IMG/VR virus record: IMGVR_UViG_3300032334_000818
Span: 1 to 38,178 of that record
DNA: 38,178 nt
Source of the DNA: a virus
Reading direction: 5' to 3' (one strand)
Shown: piece after piece, positions 1 through 34,574 of the stretch
Layout of the letters: every line of letters begins with the position of its first letter
Position numbering within the stretch: the first letter of the stretch is position 1
The notes under the pieces: model-generated
What the model saw: the letters and a program-made list of their open reading frames with translations, nothing else
Database searches by the model: none
What the model was told of the DNA's origin: nothing
Position numbers and translations under genes: made by a program

Positions 1-1
1 A

Positions 2-46
2 ACAGGGCAGATCACGGTCTACGCCCTTTGCCAAGACAACCCATAA
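2..46 (+). CDS. C-terminal end of an upstream gene (partial)
   Basis: The frame beginning at base 2 is open from the window edge and ends with TAA at 44-46, giving a 14-residue tail (TGQITVYALCQDNP). The stop touches the ribosome-binding site of the next gene, the tight packing seen throughout this block. No function can be assigned from so short a piece, and the frame could be open by chance. Confidence 0.4.
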   Translation, partial: TGQITVYALCQDNP

Positions 47-60
47 GAAAGGAGTTCACC

Positions 61-288
61 ATGAAAGCAAAGCGTGCGGTCGGCGCAGCAAAGCCAGACG
101 AAGTGCTACAGGCAATCCGAAATTACATTGGTGACTTTGGCTTCGCCCCAACGGTTCGAGAGCTGGCAAGCCTGCTTAATTGTGGGCATAGCACGATTCA
201 GCGGGCGGTAGCCCAACTGGAGAAGGATCGTCAGATCACCTTCCAGAAAAAGATTGCGCGGGGCATTGTCCCTGCGAAAACGGCATAG
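61..288 (+). CDS. Winged-helix DNA-binding protein (LexA N-terminal type)
   Basis: A 75-residue protein whose core (about residues 12-68) matches the LexA-type winged helix: a helix ending in IRNYIGDFGFAPTVREL, then a recognition segment NCGHSTIQRAVAQLEKDRQI and a short wing. There is no peptidase domain, so it is not a full LexA repressor. It is probably a small phage transcription regulator. I chose ATG 61 over the TTG at 28 because AGAAAGGAG lies at 46-54, six bases upstream. It heads the small-gene run and nearly abuts the next gene. The DNA-binding fold is well supported; the target is unknown. Confidence 0.75.
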   Translation: MKAKRAVGAAKPDEVLQAIRNYIGDFGFAPTVRELASLLNCGHSTIQRAVAQLEKDRQITFQKKIARGIVPAKTA

Positions 289-297
289 GAGGGAATG

Positions 298-822
298 ATG
301 GTTAAGAAGAAGCCTTCGGGCAAGCCCCTAGACGAACTACTAGACGACGCTCTTCGCGCCAAGAAGGAAGTGACCCCAGACACGGGTGATCTCCTCTTTG
401 ACGAAGACTATGGCTACGACTACCGATCAAGGTTCCGCCAGCCGGTCAAGGACACCGAAGAGTTTGCTAACCGAGCAGTATCGTTGGCTGAAGAACGTGC
501 GCACCTGATCAAGCGGCAGGATGAACTCATTGATGACGTGCGTCGGATTGTGGAGTACCTCAATCAGCGCTATGGCTTTGGGATCTATGACAACGGTCAG
601 GCGACCTTCTTGCGCGCCGCTAAGGCGCTGTTGAACGAAGGGTTTGGCGAGCGCTATCAGGCGTCTGGTCTGCGCTCTAGTTATGTCTTCTGTGCCGTCT
701 GCGCCTGCGAGCTGTGCGTTAGGCGCACTGATGCAGAGGCAAAGGCAACGCGTCCGGGGGTCTACGCAATCCCTGACTGCTGTGGGCATAAGGAGATCTC
801 TGGGGCTATCCTTCCGTTCTGA
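298..822 (+). CDS. Hypothetical protein with C-terminal Cys cluster
   Basis: A 174-residue soluble protein with no family I recognise. The N-terminal half is charged. The C-terminal part has closely spaced cysteines (CAVCACELC, then a CCGH 30 residues on), which could form a zinc site in the small-ribbon style frequent in this window. ATG occurs at 295 and 298. AGGAGGG at 287-293 gives better spacing to 298. The stop overlaps the next start (TGATG at 820-824), indicating translational coupling. Function unknown. Confidence 0.65.
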   Translation: MVKKKPSGKPLDELLDDALRAKKEVTPDTGDLLFDEDYGYDYRSRFRQPVKDTEEFANRAVSLAEERAHLIKRQDELIDDVRRIVEYLNQRYGFGIYDNGQATFLRAAKALLNEGFGERYQASGLRSSYVFCAVCACELCVRRTDAEAKATRPGVYAIPDCCGHKEISGAILPF

Positions 823-1172
823 TGGCAAGGAAAAAAGAGACCGTCCGTCTCTTGATGAACCGAGACAAGATGCTGAGGGAACAGGCAGAGGAGTTTCTCT
901 CTTACAACGAGTATCGCCGCCAAGGCGGCGCTAAGAAAGGAGCCAACGTGACAGAAACAAAACAAAGCCTTACGAAAGATCAACAGCAAGCGCTGCTTTC
1001 CTTCTTTCAGGAGTTTCAGCATGGATATCTTGTAGATCTTGCAGAGTTCCATGAACGGCTAATTGCAATCCCTGAGGTCTCCGTAGACCTTATCCGTGAG
1101 TACACGAGAATTTATAAGCTTATTAAGATGGGCTGGGAGCAGACGGCTAATAATTTACAGGGGGATGAGTAA
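822..1172 (+). CDS. Hypothetical small helical protein, possible dual start
   Basis: A 116-residue charged, helix-rich protein with no recognised family. Its ATG overlaps the preceding stop. An internal in-frame GTG at 948 is preceded by a much stronger ribosome-binding site, AGAAAGGAG at 934-942, five bases away. The main product may therefore be the 74-residue C-terminal part, or both forms may be made. A perfect palindrome (CGCCGCC/GGCGGCG, about 915-930) lies just upstream of that internal site. The stop overlaps the next gene (TAATG). Function unknown. Confidence 0.6.
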   Translation: MARKKETVRLLMNRDKMLREQAEEFLSYNEYRRQGGAKKGANVTETKQSLTKDQQQALLSFFQEFQHGYLVDLAEFHERLIAIPEVSVDLIREYTRIYKLIKMGWEQTANNLQGDE

Positions 1173-1528
1173 TGAAAACTTTCGTAATCTGCGGGACACT
1201 TATTTTTTGCTCACTCATAGGTTCTATTAGTAACGCCACCGTAACTGGAAAGCACTATGCTTTCTACGACGCCAATGGGGTGGTACGGCAAACGATTCAG
1301 GGAGATTTAGACGATTCCCAACTAAGCGTTTTCATGCAAGACTACGCAATTCTTTTTAAGGCTGTTGGATACGTTGAGTTTCAACCCGAGGATGGCATCC
1401 GCATTGGCACCGATCTTGACGGTAGTCCCGATGCCGCAACCCCATCTGCTGCTCCCACCGATGATTTACCAAGTAATTCCCCAGATCAATCAACCCCGTT
1501 GCCAAGTGTCCCTATCTGCGCCCCATAA
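1172..1528 (+). CDS. Secreted paralogue of the small fibre-block protein
   Basis: A 118-residue protein. Residues 1-22 form a Sec-type signal peptide (hydrophobic core FVICGTLIFCSLIGS). Residues 27-85 are a domain clearly homologous to the 67-residue protein at 17818: 25 of 46 aligned positions are identical, including GDLxxxQLxVFxxDYAILF. The C-terminal 35 residues are Ser/Pro-rich. The copy at 17818 follows the glycine-rich fibres and has no signal peptide, so this copy looks like a duplicated fibre-associated domain redirected for export. The start overlaps the preceding stop, with GGGGGATGAG as the ribosome site. Molecular function unknown. Confidence 0.75.
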   Translation: MKTFVICGTLIFCSLIGSISNATVTGKHYAFYDANGVVRQTIQGDLDDSQLSVFMQDYAILFKAVGYVEFQPEDGIRIGTDLDGSPDAATPSAAPTDDLPSNSPDQSTPLPSVPICAP

Positions 1529-1540
1529 GGGTTAGCAAAA

Positions 1541-1906
1541 GTGTGGGGCGTGCTGGAAACTAGTTCTGAGGCGTTTCGTGGGCATCACCGATTCGCCTTT
1601 GCCGTAGGTGAGTGGTTAAAGATTCGGCAAGAGGGTTCAGTCTGCCTTGTATCAGATGTTGACAACCTCCCATTTGCCCGGCTGTCATGTAATATTGACG
1701 GCACCGAACCCCCTAAGGGATGGTTCTGGCTCCGATGGTGGGGCGAGAACGAAAGCTTTTGGGAAGAGGTTGCCGATCTCTTTGAGGTTGGCGGGGAAGA
1801 AGTGGTTGTGTCTGAATTCGTGACAACACGAGCAGTCAGGCTCCGACCGTCAGGGAGAACAAGCGATGAGCAGCATCAAGCAAAAGGCGTCAACCGAGAA
1901 GGCTGA
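1541..1906 (+). CDS. Hypothetical protein
   Basis: A 121-residue protein beginning with GTG. It is rich in Trp and acidic residues (for example GWFWLRWWGENESFWEEVADLF) and is probably a small globular domain. I do not recognise the family. AAGG at 1527-1530 is a weak, distant ribosome site, so the start is uncertain. The C-terminus overlaps the next gene by 41 bases. Confidence 0.5.
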   Translation: MWGVLETSSEAFRGHHRFAFAVGEWLKIRQEGSVCLVSDVDNLPFARLSCNIDGTEPPKGWFWLRWWGENESFWEEVADLFEVGGEEVVVSEFVTTRAVRLRPSGRTSDEQHQAKGVNREG

Positions 1907-2051
1907 TGTCACGCAAGTTAATCGGTACTACTACGCTGAAAAGCCATCAACAAAGACTGACTGGGCAAATAGCGAGCCGTTCATGCGGATTGTTGGAGCC
2001 CTACTCTTTGTTGGGTTTCTCTTTATTGTCGGAAAGATCTTTGGGTACTAA
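1866..2051 (+). CDS. Small single-pass membrane protein
   Basis: A 61-residue protein with a hydrophilic N-terminal 40 residues and one strong transmembrane segment at the C-terminus (MRIVGALLFVGFLFIVGKIF). GGGAG at 1853-1857 precedes ATG 1866. It overlaps the previous gene by 41 bases and ends one base before the next start. It could be a holin-like, superinfection or membrane-modifying protein, but nothing in the sequence separates these. Confidence 0.6.
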   Translation: MSSIKQKASTEKADVTQVNRYYYAEKPSTKTDWANSEPFMRIVGALLFVGFLFIVGKIFGY

Positions 2052-2285
2052 ATGGAAAAAGGCTCCGCAGAAGATGAAGGACGAGCGTTTGGCGAGGTAG
2101 CCGCCAAGACCTTGACGCAAGATGAAGCGCGCGAGGTTATTCAGGGTTTGTCAAAAACCCTGTACGCAGTCAGGGAGTACGGCACCGTTGCGTCCGGAGC
2201 TAGGGATACTGAGCAGTTTTTACTTTCTGCAATCCGAGGCCTAGCGAGCAAAGCCACGCCTGGGCTTGGTGAGGAAAACAAGTGA
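2052..2285 (+). CDS. Hypothetical small helical protein
   Basis: A 77-residue, predicted all-helical, acidic/alanine-rich protein with no recognised motif. ATG 2052 immediately follows the previous stop. Its own stop overlaps the next gene (GTGA at 2282-2285), so it sits in a coupled operon. Confidence 0.6.
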   Translation: MEKGSAEDEGRAFGEVAAKTLTQDEAREVIQGLSKTLYAVREYGTVASGARDTEQFLLSAIRGLASKATPGLGEENK

Positions 2286-2812
2286 TCTGGGATGAGCTGC
2301 CTGGCGACCTGACTGAGGCGCATCACTTTGCGCTTGAGGAGTTAATTAATGAAATTTCTGCCGAGTGCGAAGGCACAGATTCTCCAGTCATTGCAGAGAT
2401 TGGTCGCCACAACCCACAAGTGACCGTCGCCGTAGCTCAAATCTGCTCAGAGATTGAGAAGTCCGCCCGTCCAGAATTCCTCTCGTTTAACGAGACGTTT
2501 GATCACGGCATGGCAGAGACAATCCGAGATCAGGGCTTTGAGGAGTACATCCGTTTCTTTAACCACAATGTGGAAGAAGCCGCAGATGACGTTGAGGACG
2601 GGTCATTCAACTTAATTATTATTAACGCCAAGACTGCTGCGCAGGTTGAGCGCCTGCTCTGGGACTGGACGCAGAAACTAGTCGTGGGCGGCAGGGTCAT
2701 TGGGATCTATGACGACTACTCTATCTTGGCAGTAAAGAAAGTCACGAAGGGCGACTACACGCGCATTGGCGATGATGGCTGCCTTTGGCTGATTAGCGCC
2801 TTTACTCGATAG
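2282..2812 (+). CDS. Class I methyltransferase-like protein (degenerate Methyltransf_24 type)
   Basis: A 176-residue protein. The second half has the layout of the O-methyltransferase/Methyltransf_24 fold: a beta strand with acidic end (SFNLIIINAKTAAQVERLL), then a W-x-L-x-GG strand (KLVVGGRVIGIYDD) matching the usual LxPGGxxxxHD. The SAM-binding motif I appears as VIAEIGRHNPQVTVAVAQ, which lacks the normal glycine-rich loop. The usual D of the post-strand motif is N here. It may be a substrate-specific methyltransferase or a catalytically dead derivative. The GTG start overlaps the previous stop. The last 11 bases overlap the minus-strand gene ending at 2802. Confidence 0.55.
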   Translation: MIWDELPGDLTEAHHFALEELINEISAECEGTDSPVIAEIGRHNPQVTVAVAQICSEIEKSARPEFLSFNETFDHGMAETIRDQGFEEYIRFFNHNVEEAADDVEDGSFNLIIINAKTAAQVERLLWDWTQKLVVGGRVIGIYDDYSILAVKKVTKGDYTRIGDDGCLWLISAFTR

Positions 2813-3104
2813 GCTGGTTAGCCTTCGGTCGTTCCTGCCAAGTTTTGAGGGCGCGCTCGTAGGTAAGGTCTTTTAGGGACTCATCTGTCCACAAAGTCTT
2901 TGTACTATCAATATCGTGGTATTGGTGCCGGCAGTACCAGCCACCACCTTTGAGGTCAACCATGGCTCCATGCCCGGGCTCAATCGGACACTCCGGACCC
3001 CACATCCAGCCAGTGCGCACCCACTTGGGATGGCAGGACTCCCGAACTGGCTCTTCAATCGCCCAGTCCGGCAGTTGCTCTGATGGTCTGCTCTTGACAG
3101 TCAT
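2802..3104 (-). CDS. Small Cys/His-rich protein, leaderless gene on opposite strand
   Basis: A 100-residue protein rich in Trp, His and Cys (CHPKWVRTGWMWGPEC, then HGAMVDLKGGGWYCRHQYHD), suggesting a small zinc-binding domain. No family is recognised. It is the only minus-strand gene in the left block and fills what would otherwise be a 300-base gap. It has no ribosome site. A near-perfect promoter, TTGACA at 3139-3134, 17 bp, TAGCCT at 3116-3111, ends six bases before the ATG, so the mRNA should begin at or near the A of the start codon. It converges on the methyltransferase-like gene with an 11-base overlap. Confidence 0.7.
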   Translation of the reverse strand: MTVKSRPSEQLPDWAIEEPVRESCHPKWVRTGWMWGPECPIEPGHGAMVDLKGGGWYCRHQYHDIDSTKTLWTDESLKDLTYERALKTWQERPKANQPIE

Positions 3105-3110
3105 AGGTGG

Positions 3111-3139
3111 AGGCTAAGTGGATCAAGAAACTGTGTCAA
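3111..3139 (-). promoter_or_regulatory. Sigma70-type promoter for a leaderless mRNA (2802-3104)
   Basis: On the minus strand TTGACA (3139-3134) and TAGCCT (3116-3111) are separated by exactly 17 bp, and the ATG at 3104 follows the -10 after six bases. The -35 lies inside the plus-strand gene starting at 3118. Confidence 0.75.
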
Positions 3140-3273
3140 GCCCAAAAGAATCTCCAGCCGACCCCGAAGAACTAATTTTGACCTGTCTTAACTGCGGTGC
3201 TAAGATGGATGAGTTAAAGTGCAAACTAGTGTGCGAATGCGGATACTTTGCTTCGTGCTCGGATTATTATTGA
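3118..3273 (+). CDS. Small zinc-ribbon protein (51 aa)
   Basis: A 51-residue reading frame starting with GTG 3118, with ribosome site GGTGGAGG at 3106-3113 four bases upstream. An acidic N-terminal 20 residues is followed by a zinc ribbon with CLNCG, then KLVCECGYFASCSDYY, giving two Cys pairs plus an extra Cys. Stand-alone ribbons of this type usually bind zinc and act in nucleic-acid or protein contacts. It ends seven bases before the next start. It is only 13 bases from the divergent gene at 3104, so its DNA also contains that gene's promoter. Confidence 0.75.
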   Translation: MDQETVSSPKESPADPEELILTCLNCGAKMDELKCKLVCECGYFASCSDYY

Positions 3274-3280
3274 GGTGAAC

Positions 3281-3634
3281 ATGTCAACAGACAATCTAAC
3301 CCCGATTGAAGAACTAAGCATTGACGCCGAACTAAAAGAGCTTGACAACGTTTTATTGGCAACACAGCGCATTTGGTTGATTGAGCGATCTGAGTCAGGC
3401 GTTTGGGGCGTTGGGGTAGTCCGAGATCTCCCAGAGCACCAGTGGCCCAACCCAGAGGAGATTGACAGACCCATCTACTCCTCAGACAAGTTTGAGACCA
3501 TTGCTTACCGCAGGCACGAGAACCTTGCAAAGGCAATCCATGATACTCGAGTTGACCTTGAGTTCCGAAACGAAAAGGAACTTTCAAGCCCCGATGAACT
3601 TGATAGCGTCACAGAAGCAAAAGGGGCCGAGTAA
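3281..3634 (+). CDS. Hypothetical acidic protein
   Basis: A 117-residue acidic protein with no recognised family. Its middle (TQRIWLIERSESGVWGVGVV) looks like a small beta sheet. I chose ATG 3281 over the upstream ATG at 3248 because GAGGTG at 3272-3277 is placed for it and the upstream segment overlaps the zinc-ribbon gene. The stop overlaps the next ATG (TAATG). Confidence 0.65.
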   Translation: MSTDNLTPIEELSIDAELKELDNVLLATQRIWLIERSESGVWGVGVVRDLPEHQWPNPEEIDRPIYSSDKFETIAYRRHENLAKAIHDTRVDLEFRNEKELSSPDELDSVTEAKGAE

Positions 3635-4356
3635 TGTCGTATGCCCTTGCCAATGTTCCACCAATCGGTTGCTACGTCCGCCGGGAGTACCTGCGTGATC
3701 TGCAGGACGGATTTGGAGAGTTCACCCCAGCATATTGGGTAACCGTTAAAGCCATCCGCCACCGCGCCCTATACATTGAGGCATTTCTTCCTGAGTACGG
3801 TGCGCTCTACGACAAGCTCCCGCTTAGCGCGTTTGTGCAAAAACCAAATACCCCAAAGGTTGACCTCAGTCTAGGGGAGCTGCAACTGTGGGACGCAAAC
3901 TCAACCCAACTTGCCGTGATTGAGAAAGCAGTCCTAAAAAACATGCGCTGCAAGTTCCGGACCTCTAGTGGTAAATGGAGCGAGGGACACTACATGTTTA
4001 CCGTAGACATGGTTCATAGCGATCCAAATGAAATCAACGCTAACTGGGCAAGTCTCCCTGCTGAGCACAAGTCATATAACTTTATCCGGCTGGATAATGG
4101 GCAGTACGCAGCCCAGCCAAACAACCGCATCCTTTGGTTAGATGAGGCACTTGTCTACAGGGAAACAAAGATGCCGGACTTCAGGGTCAGCACAAAAGAA
4201 TTTGCGGCGGAAGGGGCTCGCTGGCAACTTGGCGCAGAAGACTCTTGGAACTACGAAACGCAAGATGCAAAAGCAGAGAAGAAATTTGTCCAGCCGCTTA
4301 ATCCAGATCCAATCACCGCCCTTGCAAAAACGCTAAAGGCATCAGTCTCAGAATAG
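3634..4356 (+). CDS. Hypothetical protein, 240 aa
   Basis: A 240-residue soluble, aromatic-rich protein with no transmembrane segment or signal peptide. I cannot place it in a family. The start is coupled to the preceding stop. It is the last gene before a 79-base gap that holds a hairpin and a -10-like box, so it may end a transcription unit. Confidence 0.65.
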   Translation: MSYALANVPPIGCYVRREYLRDLQDGFGEFTPAYWVTVKAIRHRALYIEAFLPEYGALYDKLPLSAFVQKPNTPKVDLSLGELQLWDANSTQLAVIEKAVLKNMRCKFRTSSGKWSEGHYMFTVDMVHSDPNEINANWASLPAEHKSYNFIRLDNGQYAAQPNNRILWLDEALVYRETKMPDFRVSTKEFAAEGARWQLGAEDSWNYETQDAKAEKKFVQPLNPDPITALAKTLKASVSE

Positions 4357-4365
4357 GGGCAGTGC

Positions 4366-4396
4366 CGCCGAGGAGAAAGGAGTTCAAGCCTCGGCG
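4366..4396 (+). other. RNA hairpin presenting a Shine-Dalgarno sequence in its loop
   Basis: CGCCGAGG (4366-4373) pairs perfectly with CCTCGGCG (4389-4396). The 15-base loop contains AGAAAGGAG. No start codon follows within normal range. The loop 13-mer AGAAAGGAGTTCA also occurs at 46-58 ahead of the first gene. No U tract follows, so it is not a standard terminator. It may be a regulatory or processing element, or a relic of a lost gene start. Confidence 0.5.
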
Positions 4397-4423
4397 ACCA
4401 AAAGATCCTACACTATCTTGATG

Positions 4424-4429
4424 TATACT
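4424..4429 (+). promoter_or_regulatory. -10 box (TATACT) six bases before ATG 4436
   Basis: TATACT is followed by six bases and ATG 4436, the same spacing found at seven other starts in the window. No good -35 is visible at 16-18 bp. Confidence 0.5.
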
Positions 4430-4435
4430 GCTGAA

Positions 4436-4651
4436 ATGTCGGGAGAGAAGGGCAATGCCCCTACGGATCGGGTTTGGGCTATCTGGGTTTTGTATGCCCA
4501 AGATTTCCCTATGTCTATTTGCCTTGATCAAAGGGCGGCAGATGACGACCTTCCATACCTAGTAACTGTTGGTGACGCAGAAGAGCCGCTCTGTCGGCTG
4601 AGTGACGAGGAGACCTCATGGCTTCTCGCTAGAAAGGTAGGAATCCGATGA
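4436..4651 (+). CDS. Hypothetical small protein, probably leaderless
   Basis: A 71-residue protein with no recognised family (core RVWAIWVLYAQDFPMSICLDQ, then DDDLPYLVTVG). ATG 4421 and TTG 4418 are also in frame. I chose 4436 because a TATACT -10 box ends six bases upstream and no start here has a ribosome site. The stop overlaps the glycosyltransferase start (ATGA at 4648-4651), so it probably leads the sugar-gene transcript. Confidence 0.55.
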   Translation: MSGEKGNAPTDRVWAIWVLYAQDFPMSICLDQRAADDDLPYLVTVGDAEEPLCRLSDEETSWLLARKVGIR

Positions 4652-5301
4652 GCCGTTTGTTAATGATTGTTCCAAGCCGCAAGCGAGCAAATTCTTGCTT
4701 AGAAGTCCTAGCAGAGTTTAATAAAAACTCTGTTGACGCGGACATTCTGTTTGGTCTTGATGACGACGATAAGAGCGAATACGCTCCAGAAGTGCTTGAG
4801 CACGCAGAAATTAACCCACGGCTACGGATGGGCGGCACGCTTAACCTCTTAGCAACAAAGTACGCCAATAAGTACGAGTACTTAGGCTTTATGGGTGACG
4901 ATCATCGCCCGCGCACGCAGGGATGGGACGTGAAGCTTTGCCAAGCAATTGGCAACAAGCCAGGCGTTGCATACGGCAACGATTTGCTCCAAGGGGCAAA
5001 CCTGCCAACGGCAGTTGTCCTATCCTCAGAGATTGTTCAGAGGATTGGCTACATGGTCCCACCAACACTGATCCATATGTACATGGACAATTTTTGGCGA
5101 GACTTTGGGGATAAACTGGGAAACCTTCAATATCTCCCAGATGTAATACTTGAACACTTGCACTACCTTGCCGGCAAAGCGGTTAACGACTTGCAGTATC
5201 AGGAGGTAAATGCCTCCCACGTCTATGAAAATGACCGAATTGCCTATGCGCTTTATCAATCCGGTCAATTTGATAAAGACATCCACAAAGTCCTCTCGTG
5301 A
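4648..5301 (+). CDS. Glycosyltransferase (GT-A/GT2-like)
   Basis: A 217-residue protein with the start of a GT-A fold: IVPSRKRANSCLEVL at residues 7-21, an acidic run LDDDD at 37-41 and a FMGDDH at 81-86 in the place of the metal-binding DXD. It lacks a membrane segment. Enzymes of this family move a sugar from a nucleotide donor to protein, lipid, glycan or modified base. It is coupled on both sides, and its stop overlaps the sugar epimerase, so the two probably act in one pathway. The acceptor cannot be read from sequence. Confidence 0.75.
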   Translation: MSRLLMIVPSRKRANSCLEVLAEFNKNSVDADILFGLDDDDKSEYAPEVLEHAEINPRLRMGGTLNLLATKYANKYEYLGFMGDDHRPRTQGWDVKLCQAIGNKPGVAYGNDLLQGANLPTAVVLSSEIVQRIGYMVPPTLIHMYMDNFWRDFGDKLGNLQYLPDVILEHLHYLAGKAVNDLQYQEVNASHVYENDRIAYALYQSGQFDKDIHKVLS

Positions 5302-6173
5302 ATATCCTTATTACTGGGCACAGGGGATTTGTTGGGAAGCACTTCCGAAAGTTTTATGAGAGTCAGGGGCATCAGGTTTTTGGCATTGATATCGTTGGGG
5401 AGCCGTCTAGGGATGCTCGAGACTTCTTTCGCAAGGATGATATTCAATGGGATCTAGTTATCCATCTTGCGGCAGTAGTTGGCGGTCGCGCAAAGATTGA
5501 GGGTGACCCTCTCTCTGTTGCCGTAGACCTCTCTATTGACGCAGAGATGTGGCAGTGGTCAATTAGAACTAAGCAGAAGCGTGTTGTCTATTTCTCCTCT
5601 TCTGCCGCCTACCCGATTGAACTTCAGGCAAGAGATGAGCACGTATCTCTATCCGAGCACATGATTAACCTTAACGACATCCGTAGTCCAGATTTTACTT
5701 ACGGCTGGTCAAAGCTGACAGGTGAATACCTTGCGCAATTTGCGGAGGCAGAAGGCGTGCGTACTCACATTTTCCGACCGTTCTCTGGTTACGGCGAGGA
5801 CCAGGCGCTTGATTACCCATTTCCGTCGTTCATTGACCGAGCAAAGCGCAAAGCAGATCCTTTTGAAGTTTGGGGCGATGGGCTCCAAACCCGCGACTTT
5901 GTGCATATTGACGATATTGTTCAGACTGTTAATGCTGCTGTTGAACAAGATTACCGAGAGCCGCTCAATATTGGAACGGGCCGACCAACCTCGTTCCTTG
6001 AACTTGCAGACCTTGTCACCAGCCAGGCTGGCTATTCGCCAGAGATCATTACGCACCCAGATAAGCCTGTTGGCGTGTTCTACCGAGTTGCCGACCCCGT
6101 GATGAATTTCCAAATCTGGAAGCCTCGTATTACTCTTGAAGAAGGTATCCGCCGAGCACTTTTGACAGATTGA
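5298..6173 (+). CDS. NAD-dependent sugar epimerase/dehydratase (extended SDR)
   Basis: A 291-residue extended short-chain dehydrogenase/reductase. The Rossmann motif GHRGFVG is at residues 7-13, HLAA at 56-59, a catalytic Ser in YFSSSAAY near 101 and the YxxxK pair at Y135/K139. RDFVHIDD and NIGTGRPTS are typical of nucleotide-sugar epimerases and reductases. The GTG start overlaps the glycosyltransferase stop (GTGA). It most likely makes or remodels the donor sugar for that enzyme. The exact sugar is not determined. Confidence 0.85.
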   Translation: MNILITGHRGFVGKHFRKFYESQGHQVFGIDIVGEPSRDARDFFRKDDIQWDLVIHLAAVVGGRAKIEGDPLSVAVDLSIDAEMWQWSIRTKQKRVVYFSSSAAYPIELQARDEHVSLSEHMINLNDIRSPDFTYGWSKLTGEYLAQFAEAEGVRTHIFRPFSGYGEDQALDYPFPSFIDRAKRKADPFEVWGDGLQTRDFVHIDDIVQTVNAAVEQDYREPLNIGTGRPTSFLELADLVTSQAGYSPEIITHPDKPVGVFYRVADPVMNFQIWKPRITLEEGIRRALLTD

Positions 6174-6190
6174 CCTCCTGCCACTACGAT
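6162..6190 (+). promoter_or_regulatory. Sigma70-type promoter for the Nmad1 gene
   Basis: TTGACA (6162-6167), a 17-bp spacer and TACGAT (6185-6190). The predicted start near 6197 coincides with the first base of the ribosome site AGAAAGGAGG (6197-6206), giving a leader of about 14 bases. The CCTCC at 6174-6178, which could pair with this site, would lie upstream of the transcript. Confidence 0.75.
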
Positions 6191-6210
6191 GTGGTCAGAA
6201 AGGAGGCATC

Positions 6211-6588
6211 ATGGAACCTATTGAACATTTAATTTATAAAGACGATGCCGAAACGTTTGATAAGACGTTTGCACAGATCTATAACGAGGCATACGCCCTT
6301 TTAGTCGCCAAGCAACAGCGTTATGGCGACTCAAACATTGAGCAGCTTGGTCTGCACGGCGTTATTAGCCGCATTGCTCACGACAAGGTTGCCCGGGCAA
6401 AGAAGTTCATGAACGGCAAGATCGTGAACGGTCAAGTCATTCTTGACCCACTAGATCACACTACAGACGAGTCGCTTGCTGACACACTTTTAGACATTGC
6501 AAACTACGCGCTTATTGCCGTAGCCTTGCAGCGCGGCCAGTGGGGACGACCACTTGAGAGCGATTTGCCAGAGCGACCAAAGAAGTGA
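6211..6588 (+). CDS. Nucleotide modification associated domain 1 protein (DUF1599-like)
   Basis: A 125-residue protein with the layout of the Nmad1/DUF1599 family: YGDSNIEQLGLHGVISRI at residues 38-55, DKVARAKKF at 58-66 and DESLADTLLDIANYALI at 86-102. Established knowledge: the family is found in phages and mobile elements near base-modification genes; its biochemistry is not settled. It follows the glycosyltransferase and epimerase but has its own strong promoter and the full ribosome site AGAAAGGAGG. A role in altered DNA bases is inference. Confidence 0.75.
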   Translation: MEPIEHLIYKDDAETFDKTFAQIYNEAYALLVAKQQRYGDSNIEQLGLHGVISRIAHDKVARAKKFMNGKIVNGQVILDPLDHTTDESLADTLLDIANYALIAVALQRGQWGRPLESDLPERPKK

Positions 6589-6809
6589 ACAACCAACTTC
6601 TCCAAGCCATTAAGGTAGCCAGACAAGACGGTCGTGTTGATGCGATTAAAGATCTGCACCAGCGCATTATTGAACTGGCTGACTGGGCTGAGGCGAAGTC
6701 AGATGACGATCAATACCATCGCGGAATGCGCGATGGTCTCATTATGGCAATGGAGGCGATTGGATTAAACCGATGGAAATCAAAGAAAGATACGAAGTCT
6801 GGAAAATAG
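6585..6809 (+). CDS. Hypothetical small helical protein
   Basis: A 74-residue charged helical protein starting with GTG that overlaps the preceding stop (GTGA). It resembles small phage proteins with repeated helices (KVARQDGRVDAIKDLHQRI, then DQYHRGMRDGLIMAM) but no family is recognised. Its last 37 bases overlap the next gene. Confidence 0.6.
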   Translation: MNNQLLQAIKVARQDGRVDAIKDLHQRIIELADWAEAKSDDDQYHRGMRDGLIMAMEAIGLNRWKSKKDTKSGK

Positions 6810-6982
6810 AGTTAGTTGGTAAAGGAGAATGGAGATGGGCAATTTGGGATACCCAAGAAAAAAGGGTAGCGTTCAGCGGGGCGGAAGAAACCTGCGAAGC
6901 AGCGACGAAGACGGCTCAGGAATTATTTACTACTCTGATGCTTATCGCAGAACTGGACCTAAGTCCAGAAAGCTCGGGGTAG
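6773..6982 (+). CDS. Hypothetical small protein with Trp-rich beta core
   Basis: A 69-residue protein. The N-terminal half reads as a small beta hairpin (YEVWKIELVGKGEWRWAIWD) followed by a helix (EETCEAATKTAQELFTTL). No family is recognised. The start lies inside the preceding gene without a clear ribosome site. An overlapping frame (6829-7272) is also open here; I prefer this one for 6773-6982 because its composition is more protein-like. Confidence 0.5.
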   Translation: MEIKERYEVWKIELVGKGEWRWAIWDTQEKRVAFSGAEETCEAATKTAQELFTTLMLIAELDLSPESSG

Positions 6983-7047
6983 ATCGCTGGCTGGCTACGT
7001 CTATGTTGATCTCATTCCCGCCGATGGGCGAAGAGCGAGAGGCTGAG

Positions 7048-7272
7048 GTGACAAGTGAGTCTATGGAGTCGGTAAAGATGACCCTTGACGCGATCTCTGG
7101 ATCAAAGTCGTTTGTTGACGTAACTGCCCCTACTGGCAAAGACCCAGTCTGGACAATTGAGGCAAGAGTTGAGATCAACGGGATGATGCAAGAGTTTTCC
7201 CAGTCGTCAATGGATCTCAACGATGCTCTCTCTAAGACAATGTTCTGGGCGAACGGAATCAGCAAATGCTAA
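7048..7272 (+). CDS. Hypothetical small protein
   Basis: A 74-residue protein with an alternating beta pattern (KMTLDAISGSKSFVDVTAP, then WTIEARVEINGMMQEF). GTG 7048 is preceded by GAGAGG at 7037-7042. The frame is open further upstream (ATG 7003, or ATG 6829 after AAAGGAG), so a protein of up to 147 residues overlapping the previous gene is possible. The stop overlaps the next ATG. Function unknown. Confidence 0.5.
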   Translation: MTSESMESVKMTLDAISGSKSFVDVTAPTGKDPVWTIEARVEINGMMQEFSQSSMDLNDALSKTMFWANGISKC

Positions 7273-7475
7273 GCAAGAAGCAGAGGCGCCTTGGCGACCT
7301 GCTTGACCGCGCGGTTGATGGGCCTTTGCCGATGATGCTTGTTGGCATTGCGGACGGCGCAAATGGAAAGATTGAAGTTATTGCCAGAATGGCATACATT
7401 GCTGGCATTAAGCGAGCGTTGGAAATCGTTCGCGAGGAGGAGGCTAGAGATGACGCGCAAACAAAAGATTCGTGA
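7266..7475 (+). CDS. Hypothetical small helical protein
   Basis: A 69-residue protein with two helices (RRLGDLLDRAVDGPLPMMLV and MAYIAGIKRALEIVREEEA). ATG overlaps the previous stop and its end overlaps the next gene by 26 bases. No family recognised. Confidence 0.55.
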   Translation: MLSKKQRRLGDLLDRAVDGPLPMMLVGIADGANGKIEVIARMAYIAGIKRALEIVREEEARDDAQTKDS

Positions 7476-7806
7476 GATCCTAATGCGGACGCCAAACGAG
7501 TGGGTTGGCGGAGACAAGCTTATGCAGTCAGATACTGGGGGCGGTCGGTTTGGTGCTCGTATTGAAGAGCTTCGCAAAGACGGAGACGAGATTGAGGCGC
7601 GCAGGCATCCAGACCCAAAGCGTGCAATCTGGCAGTACCGCATTATCAAAATCGCCAATAGCCAGACTGGGGACTGGCTTTGCGCAACCTGCAGGCATCC
7701 TGTCTCTTCTGGCTTTGCGGCATCATTCTCTTCTACGCTTGCGGATGGCATCAAATCTGGCTATTGCCCTAACTGCAAATCAGGACGGTTTTTCAAGACA
7801 TCATGA
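7450..7806 (+). CDS. Winged-helix plus zinc-ribbon protein
   Basis: A 118-residue two-domain protein. Residues 1-65 look like a winged helix (KIREILMRTPNEWVGGDKL, then GARIEELRKDGDEIEARR). The C-terminal 45 residues hold CATC and CPNC pairs about 30 residues apart, a zinc ribbon. GAGGAGGAGG just upstream of ATG 7450 decides the start over the upstream ATG at 7339. It is probably a DNA-binding regulator or accessory protein. The stop overlaps the protease start. Confidence 0.65.
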   Translation: MTRKQKIREILMRTPNEWVGGDKLMQSDTGGGRFGARIEELRKDGDEIEARRHPDPKRAIWQYRIIKIANSQTGDWLCATCRHPVSSGFAASFSSTLADGIKSGYCPNCKSGRFFKTS

Positions 7807-8726
7807 AAAAGTTTTGGCTGTTCTTTGTTTCGGTTGCGATTCTCTTCTTTCCGTCGCCAGTTGACGCGGCGGCAGCAAAGAAGAAAGCAACATTTAGGGC
7901 AGTAGACAATGTCCCAAGTGCATCTGGCGGCGGATGGGCACAAGATCGAGTAAATCAACCATGGGACAGCCTTGACGGAAAGACACTTGCTGGGGCGCCA
8001 ATGGGCGCAGGGATTACCGTCTACGTTATTGATACGGGTGTTGGTACAAACGATTGCCATGGGCACGGTTCATTCATGGCAAGCCTTATTAATAGCGCAT
8101 CTTATGGCATTTCCTCTCTAGCCAACGTCGTTGGCATTAAGGCACTTGGTTGTGATGGAACGGGAACGCTTGCTCAAGTCATTACTGCAATCCAATGGGT
8201 TGATGCCCATGCCGAATATTCGTCATCCATTGTGAATATGAGCTTGGGCGGAAACGCAAACCCAGAACTAGACGCGGTTGTGAATGCTTTGGCGGTGAAA
8301 ATGCCAGTTGTGGTTGCTGCTGGAAATGAGTCCACCGATGCCTGCACTAGAAGTCCGGCTCGTGCCAAATCTGCAATTACTGTTGCTGCAATGACAAAGA
8401 ATCACCTAAGGTCAATATTCTCTAACTGGGGTAAGTGCGTAGACATTTGGGCGCCAGGTAGCGCAATTGATGGGTTGAATAAGTTGGGTGATCCTATGAC
8501 TGCAAGCGGAACAAGCCCAGCAACGGCACTTGTTTCTGCTGCTATTGCGTACATTGCAGACAGAGATGAATCAACCACGATGCAGGCAGCGCTAACCATT
8601 ATGAAGGAAAGTAGCGACATCGTCATCATTGATGGAAGAACTAATGGGGTAAAACCGTATGTTCTTTGGGTGCGCGATGCCCCCTATCGTTGGATTAGAA
8701 CCGCCTACCCGTCTTCACTGAACTAA
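7803..8726 (+). CDS. Secreted subtilisin-like serine protease (S8, proteinase K type)
   Basis: A 307-residue protein. Residues 1-22 are a signal peptide (MKKFWLFFVSVAILFF, cleavage near VDA-A). The S8 catalytic triad is Asp77 (VIDTG), His88 (GHGSF) and Ser238 (SGTSPA), with oxyanion Asn175 (AAGNE). Four cysteines could form disulfides. The segment after the signal peptide already resembles a mature subtilase N-terminus (GWAQDRVNQPWD), so the usual I9 inhibitor propeptide is missing. The protein is therefore shorter than most secreted subtilases. The ATG overlaps the previous stop (ATGA). The 3' end overlaps the terminase gene tail-to-tail by 32 bases. It should act outside the cell membrane; the substrate is unknown. 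Confidence 0.9.
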   Translation: MKKFWLFFVSVAILFFPSPVDAAAAKKKATFRAVDNVPSASGGGWAQDRVNQPWDSLDGKTLAGAPMGAGITVYVIDTGVGTNDCHGHGSFMASLINSASYGISSLANVVGIKALGCDGTGTLAQVITAIQWVDAHAEYSSSIVNMSLGGNANPELDAVVNALAVKMPVVVAAGNESTDACTRSPARAKSAITVAAMTKNHLRSIFSNWGKCVDIWAPGSAIDGLNKLGDPMTASGTSPATALVSAAIAYIADRDESTTMQAALTIMKESSDIVIIDGRTNGVKPYVLWVRDAPYRWIRTAYPSSLN

Positions 8727-10110
8727 AGTAGAACTGGCTTCCAGATAGATCTGCGGCATAAACCAAAGCATCTACAAGGTCATCATGCTCGCCATTTGGA
8801 AAAGCCCCCATCTCTGCCTCAAGGTCTGAGATCCCCGGTCCGCCTTTAAGGTGGAACACCTTTCCTGATTCGTATCGAGCAGCCAGACCGCGTGCGCGCG
8901 TAACCTTATCCTTGTCTGGTCGCACTGGTCGGGCAGGAAGATTGGTCGTCCCCAGAACTTCGCGAACAAACGTGCTCTGATGCTGAACAGATTCAATGTT
9001 TACCGACTCAAGGTTGCGAGAGCCATCATTTGCTCGGTTTCCGTTTGGGATAAGGTATTCCGGCCAGAGAAGCCTTGGACCACCCTCTTCGCAGAGCTCA
9101 CCGTTGTTGTCAACCCCCGTCAACCATTTCTTGTGACCCTCGGCTAATCGTGCCTTCCACGCTCCGATAACGTAAAGATTGTGGTCTGCATCTTCAACAA
9201 CTTCAACAGCGGTTGTATAGTCGCTTCGTTCCGAGGCAGAGGAGGCAAGGTCAACGCCTACTCGATGAGCGCCGTCTGGAACCTTATCTACATATCTAAA
9301 CGAGTCATAACGGAAGATGTTGCCGCCCATAGAGGTGACGTCATTTTGAAACTGTAGCATGAAGATAGGCGTACCCAGCTCTTCTTTCTTGCGATCCATA
9401 TCGGCAACCGTGTACATTTCTGGCCAGAGGATTTTCCCATCCTCAACTGCTCTTCGCAGCATGACTGGAGTGCCTTTAGTTGCAAGACCAGCATAGAAAT
9501 CATCCTCATGCCATCGCGTGCCGATGTACCAACGCTTGGCTCCTGGGACAAGCATCGGGTCAACAACCTGCCAGTAGGTGTCTGAGGCTTTTTGGCGTTG
9601 GACAGCAGTTGCGTTCTCTTTCATTCCCACCATGTCGTCGCCAATCAAGATATCCAATCGGGCGCCTGGCTTGATAGAACCAAGACCATCAGCAAAGCAC
9701 GTAGCATCTTTGCCCATGGTCGCTCCTTTAATTGTCCACACTTCGTCGGTCCACTTAGGTCCAGCCACTCCGCCTTGTGCCCACTCAAAAACTTCAGCAA
9801 AGTGAGGTGACTCAATAATTGCTTTGATTGCACGAGAACGCGCTAAGGCATCAGAAAGCACGGAAGTCAGAATACCAACACGGATCTTCCCTTGATTAAC
9901 GCCAATAAGGCGAGCAACTCGGTGAATGAGTTGAGTGGTCTTTGCATGACCGCGAGGCATCAGGACAAGCGCGCGGTCGCTCTTATCTAAAAATCTTTCC
10001 ATCTCCCGAAGGTGCTTGGGAAAAACAAGGTTAGAGACGTATTCGGCAAACGCCGCGTCAGACGTCTTTGCTCGTTCCCTCAACCACTGTCGGTACATCT
10101 GGCTGTCCAT
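8695..10110 (-). CDS. terL: Terminase large subunit
   Basis: A 471-residue packaging ATPase/nuclease. Walker A is MPRGHAKTT at residues 51-59, Walker B is LDILIGDD at 152-159 and a coupling-type segment GTRWHEDD follows at 197-204. The nuclease domain begins with VGVDLA (Asp287) and ends with the acidic pair in EHDDLVDALVYA near 445-455. It cuts concatemeric DNA and drives it into the prohead. The start overlaps the small subunit gene by 53 bases and has a good ribosome site (AGAGGAGGAG). It converges on the protease gene. Head genes are not adjacent, unlike in many siphoviruses. Confidence 0.95.
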   Translation of the reverse strand: MDSQMYRQWLRERAKTSDAAFAEYVSNLVFPKHLREMERFLDKSDRALVLMPRGHAKTTQLIHRVARLIGVNQGKIRVGILTSVLSDALARSRAIKAIIESPHFAEVFEWAQGGVAGPKWTDEVWTIKGATMGKDATCFADGLGSIKPGARLDILIGDDMVGMKENATAVQRQKASDTYWQVVDPMLVPGAKRWYIGTRWHEDDFYAGLATKGTPVMLRRAVEDGKILWPEMYTVADMDRKKEELGTPIFMLQFQNDVTSMGGNIFRYDSFRYVDKVPDGAHRVGVDLASSASERSDYTTAVEVVEDADHNLYVIGAWKARLAEGHKKWLTGVDNNGELCEEGGPRLLWPEYLIPNGNRANDGSRNLESVNIESVQHQSTFVREVLGTTNLPARPVRPDKDKVTRARGLAARYESGKVFHLKGGPGISDLEAEMGAFPNGEHDDLVDALVYAADLSGSQFYFSSVKTGRRF

Positions 10111-17817: not shown

Positions 17818-18021
17818 ATGACACGATACGCGTTCACGGATGCAGACAATGTTTGCAAGCAGATTATTACTGGGGATTTGACTGAGGAGCAGTTGGCGGT
17901 CTTTGACGCTGACTACGCGATTCTTTTTCAAGCCACGGCGCGACATGAGATCGGGCTTGAAGACCCAGCTCAAATTGGTTGGGTTCTGGTTGACGGAGTA
18001 TTTACTGATCCAAACGCGTAA
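17818..18021 (+). CDS. Small protein closing the fibre block
   Basis: A 67-residue soluble protein, homologous to the secreted protein at 1172 (25 of 46 aligned positions identical; shared GDLxxxQLxVFxxDYAILF). TAGGAG precedes ATG 17818. Small genes directly after phage adhesins often encode assembly chaperones or cap domains, so either role is possible here. That is inference from position; no such family is recognised in the sequence. Confidence 0.65.
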   Translation: MTRYAFTDADNVCKQIITGDLTEEQLAVFDADYAILFQATARHEIGLEDPAQIGWVLVDGVFTDPNA

Positions 18022-18089: not shown

Positions 18090-18121
18090 CTCACTGCCCA
18101 CCAAACCGCAGCGAGGTGTCC

Positions 18122-19738
18122 GTGAATAAACTCTTTGTTATCGGTTGTACTTTGTGGCTTATTGCCGCAACGCTTGTGTATTCCATTGTTGTTTCGCCAG
18201 TTCATGGCGCTCAAAACAGTTATGTAGATCGCACGCAAGACTTCTGGATTACTGTTCCCGAGCAAAGCCTCCTTCACATTTGGACTGATCTGTGTGACAA
18301 CAGCACCGCTGGATGGTGCCCCGGAACCGTTGACTCCATGCTCTGGCTATATGACAGCAATGGAAATCTTATTGCCGCCAATGATGACTCGTACACTGAG
18401 CACACGGGTGGATATTCCCTTGCTTCAACAATCCGAATTTCTGTTCCAGCGGGAAACTATCGAGTTCGTGCTGGCGTGTGCTGCGGAGACCCAACGGCAG
18501 ATCGGTTCTATGGAAATCATTACTACATGATTAGCAACTTTGAGGCGGAGCTTGCGCCGGGAACTCCTTCGGCAACATGGACCCCAACGCCCCCACCAAC
18601 CCCTACACCCACACCTACCCCAACACCAACTCCTGAACCAACGCCAACCCCTACACCAGAGCCAACTCCAACCCCAGAGCCAGATCCGTACCTTAATGTT
18701 CCTACGGGACTCATGGTTACGGTTTATTCTGACGGAAGTGTCTACTTGACTTGGGATGCCCCAGAGGCAAGCAATGTGGACATTGAACGATACGGCGTTT
18801 TCTGGACAACAGGAGACCTTGCGGGTTGGGGGGCGCCAGCCTTGGGAACAAACATGACCATTGCCAACAGCGTATTTATTGAGAATGGAGGAGTTGATGC
18901 TACCTACACATTCTGGATTCGAGCAGACAACGACAGCCAACACGTGTACTCAGAGTCCTCACCAAGGGTTTCAGTGTTCGTGCCGCGTATCCCAGAACCC
19001 GAGCCAAGCCCAACCCCAACCCCTACGGAGGTACCATCCATTGAGCCAACCCCAGACCCGACTGCCACACCCGAGCCGACGCCCGAACCGACCGTGGAGC
19101 CTACCCCAACTCCTACGCGCGAACCTGTTCCTAGTGATCCTTCTAGCCCTGAGCCTACACCACGTCCTAGCCCGTCCGTAGACCCGTCTAGGAGCCCCGT
19201 AGAGCCGAGTTTACCCCCAACCCCCTCTCCTAGCCCAGACCCAACAGAAACGCCCCTAGAAACCCCAATTCCGACGGAGGTACCAACCCCTGAACCTAGC
19301 CCATCTGCTGCTCCTGAAAATCCGCTTGAGGCGGCTGGAGCTGCGGTTGAGGCTGTTGGAGAGGCAGTTGGTGCGGTTGCAGAAGCGGCTGCCGAAGCCG
19401 TAGGCGCTGCTGCCGAGGTAGTTGCAGAAGCAGTCGGCGCGGCGGTAGACAAAGTCGCCAATCTCGGTAAAGATATTACTGAAGAAAAGCGTCAGGAGCT
19501 TCGCACCGTTGTCGGCCCTGCCGTCATCATGACCCAGATTGCCCAGGCTGCTGCCGCTGCTGCGGGTGCCGCCCGAGGCGGTAATGGCGGTGGCGGTGGC
19601 GGATTTGGTGGCGGTGATGGTGGCGGCGATAAGCCCAAGGGCGGAAAGCGCTCGTCACGCAGGTCAGGAAATCGGGCTGCTGGGAAGTCCCCGGCAGGAA
19701 AGTCGGCCCCCAAGCCATTGAATAGGAGAAACCGCTGA
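18122..19738 (+). CDS. Secreted multidomain surface protein, probably membrane-anchored
   Basis: A 538-residue protein. The signal peptide is near residues 1-28. Next comes a domain like the bacterial pre-peptidase C-terminal (PPC) beta sandwich (DFWITVPEQSLLHIW, YDSNGNLIAANDDSY, SVPAGNYRVRAG), a Thr-Pro repeat linker, a fibronectin III domain (VPTGLMVTVYSDGSVYLTWD), a second long Pro-rich linker, an Ala/Val/Glu amphipathic helix, a hydrophobic stretch (VVGPAVIMTQIAQAAAAAAG) and a basic Gly/Lys/Arg tail. This suggests an extracellular stalk held by a C-terminal membrane segment with a cytoplasmic basic tail. GTG 18122 is preferred over GTG 18116 because GCGAGGTG precedes it. The stop overlaps the next gene. 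Confidence 0.75.
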   Translation: MNKLFVIGCTLWLIAATLVYSIVVSPVHGAQNSYVDRTQDFWITVPEQSLLHIWTDLCDNSTAGWCPGTVDSMLWLYDSNGNLIAANDDSYTEHTGGYSLASTIRISVPAGNYRVRAGVCCGDPTADRFYGNHYYMISNFEAELAPGTPSATWTPTPPPTPTPTPTPTPTPEPTPTPTPEPTPTPEPDPYLNVPTGLMVTVYSDGSVYLTWDAPEASNVDIERYGVFWTTGDLAGWGAPALGTNMTIANSVFIENGGVDATYTFWIRADNDSQHVYSESSPRVSVFVPRIPEPEPSPTPTPTEVPSIEPTPDPTATPEPTPEPTVEPTPTPTREPVPSDPSSPEPTPRPSPSVDPSRSPVEPSLPPTPSPSPDPTETPLETPIPTEVPTPEPSPSAAPENPLEAAGAAVEAVGEAVGAVAEAAAEAVGAAAEVVAEAVGAAVDKVANLGKDITEEKRQELRTVVGPAVIMTQIAQAAAAAAGAARGGNGGGGGGFGGGDGGGDKPKGGKRSSRRSGNRAAGKSPAGKSAPKPLNRRNR

Positions 19739-20614: not shown

Positions 20615-21364
20615 TTACTTGTTTACGTGCTGACCGCACGCGGGGCAGGGCGCAGGCTTGACTGGCGCCACTGGCGCAGGAGCCGGCGCTGGAGTCTCAA
20701 CTGGAGCGACCCAACCCTTTGGTGCGCTAACAATAATAACATGCTTAAATGCTGGGGCAACATGTGCCTTTGATACACGCTTGCTATCGGCGAGCTTTAG
20801 CAGGGTGTCCTCACTGATGAGAACGCCAAACTGCTCGTTACCCTTGCCCGAGCGCGTTGGGCATGCCCACTGCCAGCCAAGATCCTTGTCCCAGGCGGCT
20901 GCGGTCATATGCCCATAACCGCTTGCAATGTGTTTAGGGTCTTTCTTATAGCCCCCGCCACCCTTGCCCCACCACTTAGCCCACTTTGTGTGCCAAGCGC
21001 TGATTTCAAGTCCGGCTGGATAGCCAATAGGCTGCTGAACCCAAACGCCAATGGCTGCGCCAGCCTTGGCTGAGGCAACTACATCGTTCCAGTCTTTTGC
21101 CCAGCGGGCTTCTGCGCCAAGAACTTTTGCCGTCTTAATAAGATCGCCAAGAGACGATCCATTGTCGCTAACGCCCTGCTTTTCAACAAAACCAGTAGCC
21201 TTTGCCTTAGCGGCAATGCCATCGCCAGCGGAGAAATCTTTTCCTGCGGCGTATTTAAACGCCCACGATACGCATGCGGCAATGCTTGACGGACCGCAGT
21301 CGTCTAAGATGCCGCCCTTTTCCTCGTGATCAAGCTGAGACTTGACCTTGAACTGGAGTGCCAT
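20615..21364 (-). CDS. Endolysin, C39-like peptidase
   Basis: A 249-residue protein. The catalytic Cys23 lies in DDCGPSSIAACVSWA. His152 in SGYGHMTAAAW and an Asp at 159 or 161 would complete a C39-like papain-fold active site. Pro/Ala-rich linkers (PAPAPAPVAPVKP) lead to a short CPAC ending. There is no signal peptide, so it needs the adjacent holin. It should cut peptidoglycan cross-links. AAGGAGG precedes the ATG. The C-terminal single Cys pair may be half of a wall-binding zinc knuckle. Confidence 0.8.
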   Translation of the reverse strand: MALQFKVKSQLDHEEKGGILDDCGPSSIAACVSWAFKYAAGKDFSAGDGIAAKAKATGFVEKQGVSDNGSSLGDLIKTAKVLGAEARWAKDWNDVVASAKAGAAIGVWVQQPIGYPAGLEISAWHTKWAKWWGKGGGGYKKDPKHIASGYGHMTAAAWDKDLGWQWACPTRSGKGNEQFGVLISEDTLLKLADSKRVSKAHVAPAFKHVIIVSAPKGWVAPVETPAPAPAPVAPVKPAPCPACGQHVNK

Positions 21365-33857: not shown

Positions 33858-34403
33858 TATTCAGCAACTTCGCCTTTACTTCTGGTGACCCAAATTGATG
33901 CACAAGGCTCTCAAACGACGAACCCGTGTTTGCAAAGGTGCTGCTGGAACTGCCTGATCGCGGCGACTTGCTCTTTTTCTCCATCTCAGCATCGCGCTTT
34001 TCCGCATATTCTGCGAACATCTTGAGCTGAGGGAGAGTGAGTTGGAGAAATTGCTCAGGCGTGAACCCGAAGGCGTCCGTATAGGACGCCATCAGGCCAC
34101 CCCAATCTATACTTCCCCAGCCGCTTCCGCTTTTCCCTCGGAAACCTCATCAGTCCCGAGAAGCCCGCTGGCTCGGAGCACCTTGTCTACTTCTGTCTGC
34201 ATCGTCTGCACATTAAAACGCTCGCCGACCTGAAGTTCGGTGATTGCTGGCTCTTCCTTGCGGATAACAAGCCAAAGGATCTTCCGAACAACTCCGAATC
34301 GTCCAAGGTCAATCTTGTCGAGTGGCCCGAACTGATCCTCAATCTCCGCTAGGTCGTTAAGGTTGAGTGCTCGCTTTGCCTTAAGTTCTGCTAGATCTGC
34401 CAT
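33850..34403 (-). CDS. Tail assembly chaperone, -1 frameshift fusion (long form)
   Basis: The long product joins 34403-34131 to 34131-33850 by a -1 slip at GGGAAAA, giving 184 residues. After the slip the frame is open without stops and reads SGSGWGSIDWGGLMASYTDA, then FGFTPEQFLQLTLPQLKMF, a pattern typical of the second half of G/GT-type chaperones. A stand-alone ATG at 34092 is inside this frame but has no convincing ribosome site. Known for the family: both forms bind the tape measure protein and recruit tail tube subunits, at a fixed ratio. Confidence 0.85.
34107..34403 (-). CDS. Tail assembly chaperone (short form, G-like)
   Basis: The 98-residue unshifted product, ending AEAAGEV. It begins at ATG 34403, not the upstream ATG at 34442, because GGGAG stands just before it. 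It has a helical acidic core (LNDLAEIEDQFGPLDKIDL, RKILWLVIRKEEPAITELQ) and lies between the major tail protein and tape measure genes, the invariant chaperone position in siphoviruses. It would be the abundant form. Confidence 0.85.
   Translation of the reverse strand: MADLAELKAKRALNLNDLAEIEDQFGPLDKIDLGRFGVVRKILWLVIRKEEPAITELQVGERFNVQTMQTEVDKVLRASGLLGTDEVSEGKAEAAGEV
34131..34137 (-). other. Programmed -1 ribosomal frameshift slippery site
   Basis: Minus-strand GGGAAAA in phase as G GGA AAA, a canonical X XXY YYZ heptamer, 22 bases before the stop of the short chaperone. The downstream -1 frame is open to 33850. Confidence 0.85.
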
Positions 34404-34503
34404 TTTTCTCCCACTAGGCGACATACCATTGGGTAGCCGCAACTTGAACTAAGTCCGCATAAAGGGGTTTCCCTCAACGGGGACGGATGAAGTATACCAA
34501 CAG

Positions 34504-34522
34504 AAAAACGCCAGTTGGCGTT
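34504..34522 (-). terminator. Intrinsic terminator between major tail protein and chaperones
   Basis: On the minus strand AACGCC-AACT-GGCGTT is followed by TTTCTG, a six-bp stem with a U run overlapping its end. It should cut transcription after the major tail protein and lower expression of the chaperone and tape measure genes. Confidence 0.7.
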
Positions 34523-34542
34523 ATTTATTTTCTGGGTGTTTT

Positions 34543-34574
34543 AACGGGCCGAGAGCCGAAGCTCCCGACCCGTT
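34543..34574 (-). other. Strong UUCG-capped hairpin after the major tail protein gene
   Basis: Minus strand AACGGG-T-CGGGAGC, loop TTCG, GCTCTCG-G-CCCGTT: about 14 pairs including wobble. No U run follows. It may stabilise the 3' end of the abundant major tail protein mRNA, act with the terminator 20 bases on, or be a processing site. The rest of 34404-34597 holds only these structures and the chaperone leader. Confidence 0.7.

Follow-up and report, generated by a model that had tools for sequence, protein, structure and literature searches.

A clade of predicted exported phage subtilases of the proteinase K type without a propeptide

The window, a 38,178-nucleotide stretch of virus DNA (IMG/VR record IMGVR_UViG_3300032334_000818), encodes a protein whose sequence places it among the S8 subtilases of proteinase K/VPR/aqualysin type. 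It is probably an exported, propeptide-independent protease of tailed phages, acting on host-envelope proteins and encoded by an accessory gene. The protein belongs to a family whose members all lack a recognizable I9 propeptide, and in the branch that contains the window protein a segment of the catalytic core between the catalytic Asp and His is also deleted.

The open reading frame was found at the coordinates given by the initial annotation, and Asp77, His88, Asn175 and Ser238 are each exactly where that annotation had placed them. The features of the locus are as follows.

7450–7806, plus strand: gene for a wHTH/zinc-ribbon-like cytosolic protein; its stop overlaps the S8 start (ATGA)
7803–8726, plus strand: S8 subtilase gene, 307 aa, ATG start (Pfam, homology, selection)
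7803–7868, plus strand: predicted Sec-type signal peptide, residues 1–22, MKKFWLFFVSVAILFFPSPVDA (rule-based scan; layout common to all relatives)
7869–7934, plus strand: short polybasic linker, residues 23–44, AAAKKKATFRAVDNVPSASGGG (clade A alignment)
7935–8678, plus strand: catalytic core with proteinase K fold, residues 45–292 (Pfam, homology, predicted model)
8031–8033, plus strand: catalytic Asp77 (sequence, family alignment)
8034–8063, plus strand: shortened Asp-His loop, residues 78–87; VPR/aqualysin, cellular S8s and clade B retain the strand e2 region that is deleted here
8055–8057, plus strand: Cys85, predicted disulfide to Cys117; equivalent of VPR C67-C99
8064–8066, plus strand: catalytic His88 (sequence, family alignment)
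8151–8153, plus strand: Cys117, predicted disulfide partner of Cys85
8325–8327, plus strand: oxyanion-hole Asn175 (sequence, family alignment)
8343–8345, plus strand: Cys181, predicted disulfide to Cys212; equivalent of VPR C163-C194
8436–8438, plus strand: Cys212, predicted disulfide partner of Cys181
8514–8516, plus strand: catalytic Ser238 in GTSPATA, with Pro and Ala at BPN' positions 222 and 225
8679–8723, plus strand: C-terminal tail, W-I-R...YPSS, residues 293–307, present in part of clade A
8695–10110, minus strand: terminase large subunit (TerL), convergent, overlapping the S8 3' end

Peptidase_S8 is the only Pfam match of the open reading frame (E = 2.1e-19). Among proteins of known structure it is closest to VPR (3e-42), a Serratia proteinase K-like enzyme and aqualysin I, and the triad and oxyanion Asn occur in the order of S8A proteinase K-type enzymes, with the GTS motif. 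An AF2 model built with the family alignment has an overall pLDDT of 73, with much of the core above 90. In the model, Asp77 terminates a strand, while His88 and Ser238 are at helix starts, as in subtilisins. VIA-align superimposes the model on proteinase K-type enzymes with Z of about 32 over 235–240 residues (1.9–2.6 Å), and sequence and fold similarity thus both fit the S8A proteinase K type. Specifically, the window protein has in common with VPR (1sh7/1s2n), aqualysin I (4dzt) and proteinase K the fold, the triad, the SLGG and AAGN motifs, the VPR-type cysteines and an export signal. Unlike the proteinase K subfamily, it has no I9 propeptide, its clade lacks 20–22 residues between Asp and His, and it carries GTSPATA in place of GTSMA(S/T)P.

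Other small or unusual S8 groups fit less well. Intracellular subtilisins (ISPs) similarly have no I9 and a short N-terminal extension, but membership was rejected because ISPs are made without a signal peptide and contain LIPY/F, whereas the window protein has a signal peptide and no LIPY/F in its extension. The ISP-like proteases of Bacillus phages SP-15 and Goe3 have an Asp-His spacing of 32 or more and are far from the window protein in the tree. A weak profile match to mycosins, the T7SS proteases (TIGR03921), scores 68.6 against a cut-off of 278.75 bits; as there is also no C-terminal membrane anchor, mycosin membership was rejected. No membrane helix is found in the C-terminal tail, and the last 45 residues have no hydrophobic stretch. 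QhpE (NF049966) is likewise a small, unusual subtilisin-like protease, but a cytoplasmic single-turnover leader peptidase (PMC7876137); the window protein scores 39.7 against its cut-off of 165.

Iterated IMG/VR searches yielded 46 loci of the S8 family. From these, 27 distinct full-length proteins, window included, define clade A and fall into 10 clusters at 80% identity. The full-length relatives are 45–86% identical to the window protein, and two partial relatives (L005, L006) are 96–97% identical. The BFVD phage protein A0A6J5RRB1, labelled mycosin, is 53% identical. The triad, the oxyanion Asn and Cys85, Cys117, Cys181 and Cys212 are invariant in 27 of 27 clade A proteins. Clade A is under strong purifying selection: dN/dS between the window gene and four relatives is 0.05–0.07 overall and 0.03–0.06 in the core. 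The low dN/dS, together with the invariant triad and Asn in 27 sequences, indicates that the features of this open reading frame are not due to chance. Of two genome-contig scans for S8 relatives, the first found none and the second only ordinary S8s. One record, L054 (CAKLQH020000012.1, 'Acinetobacter phage MD-2021a'), resembles a bacterial chromosome, with a sulfate transporter, an alpha/beta hydrolase and an ordinary precursor protease, and is probably mislabelled.

A TerL-based scan extends the family. Among the best 80 loci, near-duplicates included, 69 extend 900 bases or more past the 3' end of TerL and are testable, and an S8 gene lies beyond TerL in 63 of these. It is present in 42 of 44 loci whose TerL is at least 84% identical and in 21 of 25 whose TerL is 72–75% identical; the latter group is designated clade B. 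The clade B S8s have intact triads, an Asp-His spacing of 30–31 and an additional C-terminal Cys pair. The gene is cleanly absent in 6 of the 69 (L090, L091, L129, L132, L134 and L153), and these loci, with the same terminase and no flanking S8, form natural with/without pairs.

The signal peptide claimed by the initial annotation is supported by a rule-based scan. It consists of K2K3, a hydrophobic segment at residues 5–16 and V-D-A at residues 20–22, and this layout is repeated in 27 of 27 distinct sequences, window included. Alignment of the N-terminal block (WAQDRVNQPWDSLDG...ITVYVIDTG) with the solved relatives indicates that the mature-type domain begins near residue 40–45, which leaves about 22 residues between the signal peptide and the conserved W45; measured from the predicted cleavage site the distance is 22 residues only. 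The usual subtilase propeptide has about 75 residues. In line with the annotated absence of an I9 domain in this interval, Pfam gives no I9 match there. Neither the window, nor the 56 kb contig from a relative with 97% identity (G001), nor four further related records contain a match to I9 (PF05922) at E ≤ 1, while the same search recovers I9 in B. subtilis. A separate propeptide gene, which would have spoken against a propeptide-less enzyme, is thus not apparent, there being no I9 on the combined map of the window and the relative's genome.

Clade B argues that the absence is not peculiar to the window. In clade B the mature-type N-terminus follows shortly after the hydrophobic segment, with neither propeptide nor linker, and Pfam finds no I9 in the S8 proteins of either clade. 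Because the mature-type domain of clade B starts right after the signal, the loss of the propeptide is real and group-wide. In a tree that also includes cellular Actinomycetota S8s and ISP-like phage proteases, the two clades join in a single group (support 100/98; A alone 100/99, B alone 98/95), placed among proteinase K-like cellular enzymes and far from the SP-15/Goe3/MTATph1 type. An I9 domain is upstream of S8 in 7 of 10 tested close cellular S8s, and the other three have about 200 or more residues there. Since A and B are one group and 7 of 10 cellular relatives carry I9, the most simple reading of the sequences is that the phage branch lost I9. In cellular S8 domains aligned with the phage family, the spacing is 30–36 wherever the Asp-His pair is readable, and deletion of the e2 region would, most simply, be later than the loss of I9, within clade A.

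The 22-residue linker of clade A is itself a candidate for a minimal cis-acting propeptide, that is, a strand in the cleft that silences the enzyme until cut and may help folding. The signal peptide is followed by a K-rich linker in 27 of 27 full-length clade A proteins, and the lysines lead into an [FY][RK][AV] motif; K-K-K-x-x-[FY]-[RK]-[AV] is conserved across all 10 clusters. In the AF2 model of the signal-less chain, T30-A33 form a strand, in addition to strands T120-T122 and 142–150, which by homology would flank the substrate cleft on either side. The propeptide-bearing chains 3whi and 3afg align from residue 1 of this model, and the N-terminal extension of ISPs offers a precedent (PMC6220982). 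The signal-less model thus hints at an ISP-like arrangement of the linker. However, in the model of the chain with its signal, the T30-A33 strand is gone and the pLDDT of the linker is below 50; the LIPY/F motif is absent, and the linker is missing from sister clade B. Because of the lost strand and the linker-less clade B, we treat the ISP-like arrangement as a rival only, and a minimal propeptide as possible but unlikely.

Folding by means of an external chaperone or a trans propeptide, phage- or host-encoded, is suggested by Aeromonas sobria ASP (S8B), a known secreted subtilase that, like the window protein, has no propeptide and that requires ORF2 (PMC5638518, PMC9549277). ASP is kexin-like and larger, and its chaperone gene is adjacent; none is seen beside the window S8. 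In the relatives with enough sequence, the locus runs from a glycosyltransferase-like gene through an epimerase, three to four small genes and the zinc-ribbon gene to S8, after which TerL and TerS are encoded on the other strand. The S8 gene is the last of a plus-strand run that includes sugar genes and genes of nucleotide-modification type and that converges on the terminase. The zinc-ribbon gene, immediately upstream of S8 in every relative with the locus listed, gives no Pfam match and lacks a signal peptide. With this gene upstream and convergent TerL downstream, there is no secreted chaperone gene of ASP/ORF2 type on either side. No I9 was matched in the window or the five related records, and the window's other signal-bearing candidates (1172–1528 and 18116–19738) were not found in those five records, some of which are fragments. 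A helper in trans is therefore improbable. A promoter/terminator scan gave nothing above chance.

Those two candidates have features of their own. The product of 18116–19738 (plus strand) has a signal peptide, a weak PPC-domain match, a long stretch of Pro/Thr repeats and a Gly-rich C-terminus, and looks secreted and surface-like. The open reading frame at 1172–1528 (plus strand), which encodes a signal peptide, sits in a stretch with no nucleotide match in the closest relative and shares the motif YAFxDAxxVxxxIxGDLxxxQLxVFxxDYAILFxA with 17818–18021 (plus strand). Elsewhere in the window, a CGPSS-containing, papain/C39-like open reading frame at 20618–21364 (minus strand) lies beside a short holin-like one and is a probable lysis enzyme; it has no confident Pfam match.

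The conserved cysteines, which the initial annotation missed, bear on where the enzyme resides. VPR C67/C99 and C163/C194 are disulfides of the extracellular aqualysin/VPR type, and the four cysteines of the window protein at the corresponding positions argue for an oxidizing, extracytoplasmic location. Lysines directly after a signal peptide are unusual for Sec export, and the polybasic stretch after the hydrophobic segment would suit an uncleaved anchor that holds the enzyme in the membrane, perhaps facing inward. All relatives nevertheless have Ala-x-Ala-like sites, the cysteines at the extracellular disulfide positions are invariant, and the polybasic stretch is absent from clade B, which makes such an anchor quite unlikely.

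The Asp-His region also departs from known relatives, a feature missed by the initial annotation. Asp and His are 11 residues apart in the window protein and in 27 of 27 full-length clade A proteins, compared with 33 in VPR and 31 in aqualysin, so that about 20–22 core residues are deleted. A typical core has strand e2 and some 30 residues between Asp and His; the AF2 model has no strand between the two residues. The active site also varies. GTSPATA (8514–8531) places Pro and Ala at BPN' positions 222 and 225, while the nucleophile remains Ser; at position 225, some clade A members have Ala and the others Pro. Engineered peptide ligases use M222P and P225A with S221C (PMC7921005), and the Ser-Pro-Ala-Thr-Ala that follows GT holds natural counterparts of the first two of these subtiligase/peptiligase substitutions, with Ser retained. 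Catalysis could suffer from the loss of e2 and from Pro225Ala, and the missing edge-strand segment and the variable residues 222 and 225 would be compatible with an exported protein that has little or no proteolytic activity and acts by binding. Against this, every full-length protein of clades A and B keeps Asp, His, Asn, Ser and the GTS motif, and core dN/dS is low. A dead binding protein is distinctly improbable on these grounds; the conserved triad, in particular, makes an inactive product unlikely.

The window and G001, which overlaps it at 46–8392 and 28114–38178, would close a map of about 75.8 kb, circular or permuted, as inferred from the two related genomes; the window record is about half of a phage genome (window 1–8392 and 28114–38178 overlap with L074–L076). 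G001 has an S78 prohead protease domain beside an SU10-type capsid protein gene. The protease domain is part of an unusual 819-aa fusion (L076:1786–4245) with an Hva1_TUDOR match and a ferritin/Dps-like domain, whose gene adjoins the SU10-type major capsid gene. No tRNAs were found in the relative's contig. TerL was not found in 200 genomes from the family of an Actinomycetota MAG, a search run without a positive control. Although S8 adjoins the terminase genes, a head or tail maturation protease is highly improbable and the identity of a prohead protease was rejected: the S8 protein carries a signal peptide, the separate S78 enzyme leaves it unneeded in that role, and S8 is missing from 6 of 69 relatives.

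The same absence, together with the separate S78 enzyme, makes S8 an accessory rather than a virion-maturation gene, and dispensability and export favour a role in host interaction. Median identity between S8 pairs is 48%, compared with 86% for TerL and 84% for the epimerase. S8 is not a uniquely fast-evolving gene, a possibility we rejected, and because small neighbours are equally divergent (U2 43%, zinc ribbon 36%), its divergence fits a host-interaction role only weakly.

The preferred reading is an exported, propeptide-independent serine endopeptidase made during infection. Translation of S8 would be coupled to that of the preceding gene, and the protein would be made with a Sec signal that is removed at about residue 22. 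The chain, which has no I9 intramolecular chaperone, would fold outside the cytoplasm, probably aided by two disulfides formed by the invariant cysteines, into a core that, by sequence and in the predicted model, is without the edge strand e2 segment. The mature enzyme would then cleave proteins of the host envelope or the medium, in an accessory role in host interaction and not in head maturation. Surface shaving, release or prevention of re-adsorption are plausible roles, suggested by export and dispensability only.

The enzyme class, a public family member (A0A6J5RRB1) and propeptide-less subtilases (ASP, ISPs) are already known. Secreted subtilases are textbook proteins that require a propeptide for folding. 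A recent survey names ASP as the exception and counts two subtilases without a propeptide (PMC9549277). A partial coverage of the literature gave no report of an exported, propeptide-less phage S8 clade. As far as could be found, what is new is the exported proteinase K-type clade without a propeptide, its e2-less branch and its recurrence as a phage gene.

Tentatively, these proteins may form a clade of autonomously folding secreted subtilases without a propeptide, one branch of them without e2, in which phage evolution removed the kinetic folding barrier typical of secreted subtilisins; the pressure was perhaps for fast production within a single infection. Dozens of propeptide-free exported phage members, a sister branch with a full core and I9-bearing cellular relatives make up a test series that could show which changes free subtilase folding from the propeptide. 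The family is thus a natural test case both for the folding of this enzyme class and for the use of a secreted protease by a phage. The frequent carriage of an exported protease as an accessory gene across a large group of uncultured phages points to envelope proteolysis as a phage strategy.
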